Part shown: positions 7,840 through 43,673 of the stretch, piece by piece
How the letters are laid out: each line of letters opens with the position of its first letter
Numbering within the stretch: the first letter of the stretch is position 1
Assembly: GCA_013178125.1 (NCBI GenBank)
Contig: JABLXJ010000001.1
Span: 124,001-188,000, forward strand
Length of the DNA: 64,000 bases
Source of the DNA: Bacillota bacterium
GTDB lineage: Bacteria > Bacillota > SHA-98 > Ch115 > JABLXJ01
Direction of reading: 5' to 3'
Translations under genes and position numbers: made by a program
Notes under the pieces: generated by a model
The model's database searches: none
What the model was told of the DNA's origin: nothing
Seen by the model: only the letters and a program-made list of their open reading frames with translations

Positions 7840-7869
7840 AAATGATTCCCTACTACGAAAATAGTCTTC

Positions 7870-7928
7870 GGCCCCATTTTCGATGCTTCGATGGTGCCGG
7901 CCGAAAGCCGGCATGGGAGACTACCCTG
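7870..7928. repeat. Structured intergenic repeat, copy 1
   Basis: An element running from GGCCCCATTTTC to GGGAGACTACCCTG with an internal hairpin TGCCGGC / GCCGGCA around CGAAA. Copies 2 (7945-7996) and 3 (43622-43673) share the order ATTTTC, a central GCC/GGC stem, GGCATGGG and CTAC. No open reading frame matches. It lies at the junction between AT-rich and GC-rich DNA. Confidence 0.6.
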
Positions 7929-7944
7929 AAAATAATCTTGCAAA

Positions 7945-7996
7945 GGTCATTTTCATTCTCTACGGCGCCGTAAACGAGGCATGGGTGTCTACTCTG
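7945..7996. repeat. Structured intergenic repeat, copy 2
   Basis: Begins GGTCATTTTCATTC and ends GGCATGGGTGTCTAC-TCTG. It matches copy 3 at 43622-43673 at most positions but has a weaker central stem (GCC/GGC) than copies 1 and 3. It sits 17 bases after copy 1 in the same orientation. Confidence 0.6.
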
Positions 7997-43548: not shown

Positions 43549-43590
43549 AAAAAGACATAGGACATGGCATCTCCTACCATGTCCTATGTC
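43549..43590 (-). terminator. Terminator of yebC
   Basis: Perfect 14-base stem (43554-43567 / 43577-43590; GACATAGGACATGG) around a nine-base loop, followed on the minus strand by TTTTTGG. Placed downstream of yebC. Confidence 0.85.
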
Positions 43591-43621
43591 CTACCTAGAA
43601 AATAGACATTACCCCAGCTAA

Positions 43622-43673
43622 GGCCATTTTCATTCCCTGCTGGTGCCGCTGAAGGCGGCATGGGCGTCTACCC
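43622..43673. repeat. Structured intergenic repeat, copy 3
   Basis: GGCCATTTTCATTC through GGCATGGGCGTCTACCCG, with central hairpin TGCCGC / GCGGCA around TGAAG. Same element as at 7870-7928 and 7945-7996. It is followed by an irregular ATCTAC-rich stretch, and GTCTACCCG (43665-43673) has an inverted copy CGGGTAGAC about 50 bases later. Confidence 0.6.

Follow-up and report, generated by a model that had tools for sequence, protein, structure and literature searches.

Hairpin repeats of a Bacillota genome as probable miniature derivatives of an IS110-family insertion sequence

Insertion sequences (IS) of the IS110 family, such as IS621, combine a DEDD transposase (PF01548/PF02371; DEDD and Transposase_20) with a two-loop bridge RNA in the non-coding left end, whose guides match target and donor; the core is two bases long, and the right and left ends hold the donor halves (PMC11208160). 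The published IS621 left end measures 191 bp, of which approximately 177 bp are RNA (PMC11208160). Bacterial miniature inverted-repeat transposable elements (MITEs) are short, coding-free, multi-copy and precisely inserted, and have both ends in common with a resident or related IS (PMC10969869). QMITE2 of Coxiella is a short palindromic repeat tied to IS1111, an element of the IS110 superfamily (PMC5896051). Repetitive extragenic palindromic (REP) sequences and bacterial interspersed mosaic elements (BIMEs), which go with REP-associated tyrosine transposases (RAYTs), are intergenic hairpins near GTAG that occur in tens of copies and in arrays. Here we analyze three hairpin repeats in a 64,000-bp stretch of the genome of a Bacillota bacterium (contig JABLXJ010000001.1, positions 124,001 to 188,000; hereafter the window). 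The repeats resemble MITEs, QMITE2 and REP sequences in the respects just listed, and the full-length elements related to them resemble IS621. We conclude that they are very probably miniature non-autonomous derivatives of an IS110-family IS, without transposase and bridge RNA.

Whereas IS110 elements carry a transposase and a bridge RNA, the repeats have neither, and in their parent subfamily a conserved terminal stem-loop of 45 bp precedes the bridge RNA. QMITE2 is a landing site that the IS interrupts, whereas the repeats appear to be the IS's own ends; unlike REP/BIME sequences, they show no link to Y1 transposases, form direct rather than alternating arrays, and have the ends and core of IS110. 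MITE is used here broadly, for any miniature derivative that is non-autonomous. The repeats are short, coding-free and dispersed, have ends in common with an autonomous element, and are precisely inserted at sites with empty counterparts, but they have no terminal inverted repeat beyond a short inverted TGAAAAT/ATTTTCA and no target duplication beyond the two-base core. The absence of terminal inverted repeats is expected, because the subterminal inverted repeats of IS1111 are not a feature of IS110-type elements (PMC11187229). Literature searches on MITEs or other non-autonomous forms of IS110 and IS1111, with preprints outside their scope and few subscription journals covered, found no published IS110-derived MITE; the nearest report is QMITE2, a landing site for IS1111 and not a derivative (PMC5896051).

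Repeat units and their boundaries

The initial annotation described three elements with ATTTTC, a GCC..GGC hairpin and GGCATGGGNG(T/A)CTAC common to all, and these exist. Its length of 52-59 bases, however, takes in only the right two-thirds of each unit, which measures 68-77 bp in the window; a repeat had been recognized, but its boundaries and parent element were missed, and the final AC of CTAC lies outside the element, in the next unit or the target. Stems with differing bases are present in copies 1 and 3 (TGCCGGC/GCCGGCA versus TGCCGC/GCGGCA), while copy 2 has only a 3-bp GCC/GGC stem. In the 3.48-Mb host genome, an exact 15-mer pattern (GGCATGGGNGWCTAC) was found at nine places and its reversed control at none, so the repeats exceed chance. 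A covariance model built from 13 copies (R1) matched approximately 65 places in the host genome at E<0.05; host copies number about 60, and unit length across the family is 68-85 bp. With some 60 more copies in the host, the repeats do form, as proposed, a mobile and dispersed family of structured units whose stems carry compensatory changes. R1 also matched 43 places in a genome from the same genus and 47 in a genome from the same order; 16 of 61 sampled relatives carried copies. By approximate gene calling, 47 of 56 host copies lie outside open reading frames of at least 110 codons, which cover 74% of the fetched sequence. An Rfam scan of the window at the gathering threshold returned tRNAs only and no match for the repeats.

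Near-identical copies at unrelated sites part exactly after a CT, before ACC(C/T)xGAAAAT, and again after GTCT. Of 101 anchored units, 81 have CT in front of the left end, and 102 of 120 end in CT on the right, whereas the background frequency of CT is 6%. Two loci (L094 and L095), once the unit and one CT are removed, align without gaps to paralogous empty sites in another repeat of the same genome; since those sites keep a single CT, insertion is precise. Tandem copies have one CT in common at their junction. Several subtypes differ in a short internal spacer and in donor bases, the three main ones being distinguished by their donor ends (CTAGGTAG, CGGGGTAG and CGTAGTAG), and each is present in several copies, which indicates that units have multiplied as such. 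Because the spacer varies among subtypes, RNAalifold recovered only a short stem from the first 13 copies. Single copies, but not the family, could be fitted to a three-way junction (TAGAC/GTCTA outer stem, CCAGC/GCTGG), which was dropped.

Full-length IS110 elements and their guide RNA

Matches to the right half of the unit alone sit approximately 200 bp upstream of, and opposite to, IS110-family transposase genes carrying PF01548 and PF02371. The host copy, which lies outside the window (G000:C2:163414-164676), matches PF01548 at 9e-40 and PF02371 at 1e-22; NCBIfam names it 'IS110 family RNA-guided transposase' (NF033542), and among solved structures IS621 and ISCro4 come closest to it (E=5e-17 to IS621 chain 8wt6). 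Full elements with these ends encode a 421-aa transposase related to that of IS621 and occur in the host and in many genomes of the phylum, where a protein search found close transposases in 69 of 399 genomes. On the transposase strand, the left end reads AG, ACCCCCATG, stem-loop, CACCATCAGAGGATGAAAAT, and the right end ATTTTCAGGGT followed by AG. Both are found in the unit: its left end on the plus strand of the window, ACCCTGAAAAT, is the reverse complement of the IS right end, and its remainder is the reverse complement of the left-end stem-loop. The unit keeps the right-end donor half (approximately 11-20 bp) and the first 45-50 bp of the left end. Judged by its sequence, it is an IS110 element from which everything between the ends, bridge RNA included, has been removed.

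In the genome G052, two 1.68-kb copies of the full element (95.7% identical) interrupt CRISPR repeats of two arrays. These repeats are split exactly at the predicted ends, with ACCT and ATGAGGG on either side of ATCC...GGGAGTCT; the split lies directly outside ATCC... and ...GGCATGGGAGTCT, so the hairpin half travels with the IS. The same two ends recur in L292, L293 and L294. Nearly all left ends from the transposase loci consist of the core, then (A)CCCCCATG, the stem-loop and CACCA..GATGAAAA; a few relatives diverge or are without it. On the transposase strand, most elements have AG as their core, compared with CT in IS621, and two relatives (L333 and L339) have AA instead in target guide, target and right end.

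Copies inside CRISPR arrays, with the repeat split, were found at L290 and L291 (G052) and at L311 (G084). The target guide in G052, CTTATAG, matches the CRISPR repeat, while that in G084 agrees with it only in part. Targeting of CRISPR repeats by an RNA-guided element may merit separate study. In the host, the intact IS left end recurs at the edge of a short contig (G000:C44:5884-5926), which suggests another IS110 copy, collapsed or cut in assembly.

The region between stem-loop and transposase start is conserved, and its consensus fold over 12 left ends is an outer stem with two loop-bearing arms, with several compensatory pairs. In loop 1, the bases after GAGCCCG match the target adjoining the element, as in CTATTTAG (L315), TAACCAG (L316), CAAATAG (L319), GAAGTAG (L310) and AGAGCAG (L313). 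Across 29 elements, target guide and target agreed at a mean of 3.98 of five positions outside the core versus 2.04 (sd 0.18) with permuted targets, a mean reached in 0 of 100,000 permutations, with targets taken by eye from the left-end consensus, a bias that permutation removes incompletely. The right target guide was inspected by eye only. Loop 2 repeats the right end of the same element (17 of 30 show exact identity over at least 7 nt), the match lying directly after (A)TTTTC in nearly all elements, and donor guide and right end covary in cases such as CATGGCAG, CGGGATAG, CGAGGGAG, CAGATCAG and CGTAATAA. Guides that match target and donor are the published logic of bridge RNAs (PMC11208160), and the full elements show the features of a bridge-RNA-guided IS110. 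Several of them (e.g., L290, L316 and L322) have a TATAAT-like box between stem-loop and RNA, which places the stem-loop probably outside the bridge RNA.

Covariation was assessed over 49 left ends, taken from full-length as well as miniature elements. Pairing at the six stem positions was retained in 96.9% of cells, both bases had changed in 32 cells versus 4.9 in shuffles, and the signal was lost when partners were slid. A model of the 42-nt left end (R2) matched 97 of the 399 sampled phylum genomes, about a quarter, and of these 97, 44 also had one of the close transposases found in 69 genomes (odds ratio 9.2, p=7e-15), counts that in other genomes include the ends of full IS copies.

Origin and mobilization of the repeats

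The ends of the unit, its precise insertion, its identity with IS110 ends, the matching of guides to target and donor in full elements, and the covariation of the stem are all directly supported. For mobilization in trans, the formation of arrays by insertion and a possible part of the stem-loop in transposition, we infer a scheme in which a full IS110 element would supply recombinase and bridge RNA. The donor loop of that RNA would pair with the miniature element at its right end and core, and the target loop with a genomic site ending, in most cases, in AG; recombination at the two-base core would then leave the unit with CT before it and CT at its end. Since this end again presents ...TTCAGGGTAG, a later insertion could land at an existing copy, and arrays are thus plausibly built head-to-tail by insertion at the element's own end. 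Published assays speak for the feasibility of such action in trans: bridge RNA can be provided apart from a short donor (PMC11208160), and IS1111-type ends carrying foreign cargo are mobilized if the enzyme and the non-coding region are provided in trans (PMC11187229).

Several observations weigh against this account. The sole intact host IS110 of the subfamily has a target guide, GAAGTAG, that mismatches most local MITE target flanks, and its donor guide (CAGGGCAG) differs from the dominant MITE right ends (CTAGGTAG and CGGGGTAG). With its guides mismatching most local copies, the resident IS110 is not the evident helper of the host miniature copies; that helper may have been lost. The left-end model also matched 53 genomes without a close transposase, and the model-based count in other genomes takes in the ends of full IS. 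Transposition of the units is itself deduced from comparing sequences.

Other origins account for part of these data. The strong stem covariation and the mostly intergenic position of the copies would suit a functional RNA or regulatory element (a small RNA, a riboswitch-like element or a protein-binding hairpin) under selection, rather than a transposon remnant. We consider this very unlikely, as copies occur in unrelated contexts with precise boundaries and in tandem arrays, have both ends identical with those of the IS, and match no Rfam family; moreover, covariation is just as evident in full IS copies, so the constraint acts on the IS end. The folded unit that the initial annotation offered as a small RNA is instead read as the left end plus the right end of a bridge-RNA-guided IS110, with the stem-loop probably outside that RNA, although individual copies could have been co-opted. 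Slightly less probable again is an independent repeat family that IS110 uses as a landing site, the halves beside transposase genes being interrupted targets. Such cases are published (IS621 at REP elements in Escherichia coli, PMC11208160; IS1111 at QMITE2 in Coxiella, PMC5896051), and some IS copies here do lie inside repeat arrays (e.g., L293). This explanation is already contradicted, however: the two G052 copies bring the half to different CRISPR repeats, whose sequence is split directly outside it, the target guide in approximately 20 further elements matches sequence outside the half and not inside, and the donor guide matches the other half.

The least credible of these origins is a REP-type palindrome moved by a Y1 (RAYT) transposase; the initial annotation had suggested a REP-like mobile repeat. 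On the minus strand the unit starts near GTAG and continues into a hairpin, a REP-like foot and fold, and RAYT-like proteins occur in some carriers (e.g., G018, G036, G043, G048 and G059). Against this, PF01797 is absent from the three richest carriers by R1 counts (G000, G001 and G003) and from G008, G028 and G052, the fetched Y1 loci contain no R1 or R2 match, and the IS110 origin accounts for both ends. Having found no association in a PF01797 search of 61 genomes and in both models on the Y1 loci, we rejected this origin. An IS91-type rolling-circle origin was likewise rejected, PF04986 being absent from carrier genomes except G018.

Beyond the IS110 origin of the repeats, we advance tentatively, and just short of favoring it, a wider proposal. 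The units may form a class of RNA-guided miniature transposons, moved by any IS110 recombinase with a bridge RNA matching their donor end, in which the covarying terminal stem-loop outside the bridge RNA would be a required, previously undescribed cis part of IS110 transposition in this subfamily.

Elements in the window and their meaning

The features of the three elements are collected in Table 1. Near-identical copies of element 1 with other flanks occur in the host genome (L167) and in G001 (L120), and the unit of element 3, from ACC to GTCT, is identical in L092 with unrelated flanks.

Table 1. Positions of the repeat elements and their parts in the window.
Feature	Position	Strand	Basis
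CT core dinucleotide of target, left of element 1	7850..7851		CT frequency at left ends; empty-site comparison
Element 1, 71 bp, probable IS110-derived MITE	7852..7922	-	left end to right end on minus (transposase-sense) strand
Element 1, right-end half, ACTACGAAAAT (reverse complement of ATTTTCGTAGT)	7852..7862	-	position and form as in full IS110 right ends (ATTTTC + donor sequence + AG)
Element 1, left-end stem-loop, TGCCGGC/GCCGGCA	7895..7913	-	R2 match 7876-7920; covariation
Element 2, 68 bp	7923..7990	-	head-to-tail with element 1, common CT junction 7921-7922; R2 match 7949-7988
Element 2, right-end half, ACCCTGAAAAT (reverse complement of ATTTTCAGGGT)	7923..7933	-	form as in right ends of full copies L292 (ATTTTTCAGGGTAG) and L314 (GTTTTCAGGGTAG)
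Element 2, decayed left-end stem-loop, GCC/GGC	7967..7980	-	sequence; low R2 score (31.6 bits)
Element 3, 77 bp, subtype A	43593..43669	-	R2 match 43626-43667, 54.9 bits
Element 3, right-end half, ACCTAGAAAAT	43593..43603	-	comparison of copies and of full IS110 right ends
Element 3, left-end stem-loop, TGCCGC/GCGGCA	43644..43660	-	sequence; covariation; R2 match

Directly upstream of element 3, at 43554-43590, lies a perfect 14-bp inverted repeat (GACATAGGACATGG/CCATGTCCTATGTC), possibly a terminator or another repeat. The host also has a second repeat family, palindromes like GCCAAGAAACTTGGCAGG in arrays (L094:1579-1913, L155:144-464, L162:1077-1302 and L167:1076-1289), and at least four miniature elements are inserted in it between CT and GCCAAGAA.

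IS110 recombinases are RNA-guided DNA recombinases in development as tools for large-scale genome editing. Miniature derivatives that arose naturally reveal which end sequences are retained once enzyme and guide are lost, namely a short right-end donor half and approximately 45 bp of left end with its conserved stem-loop. Both the minimal cargo and the function of the stem-loop thereby become open to direct test. This common family also accounts for a set of intergenic repeats, otherwise anonymous, that many genomes of the phylum contain.
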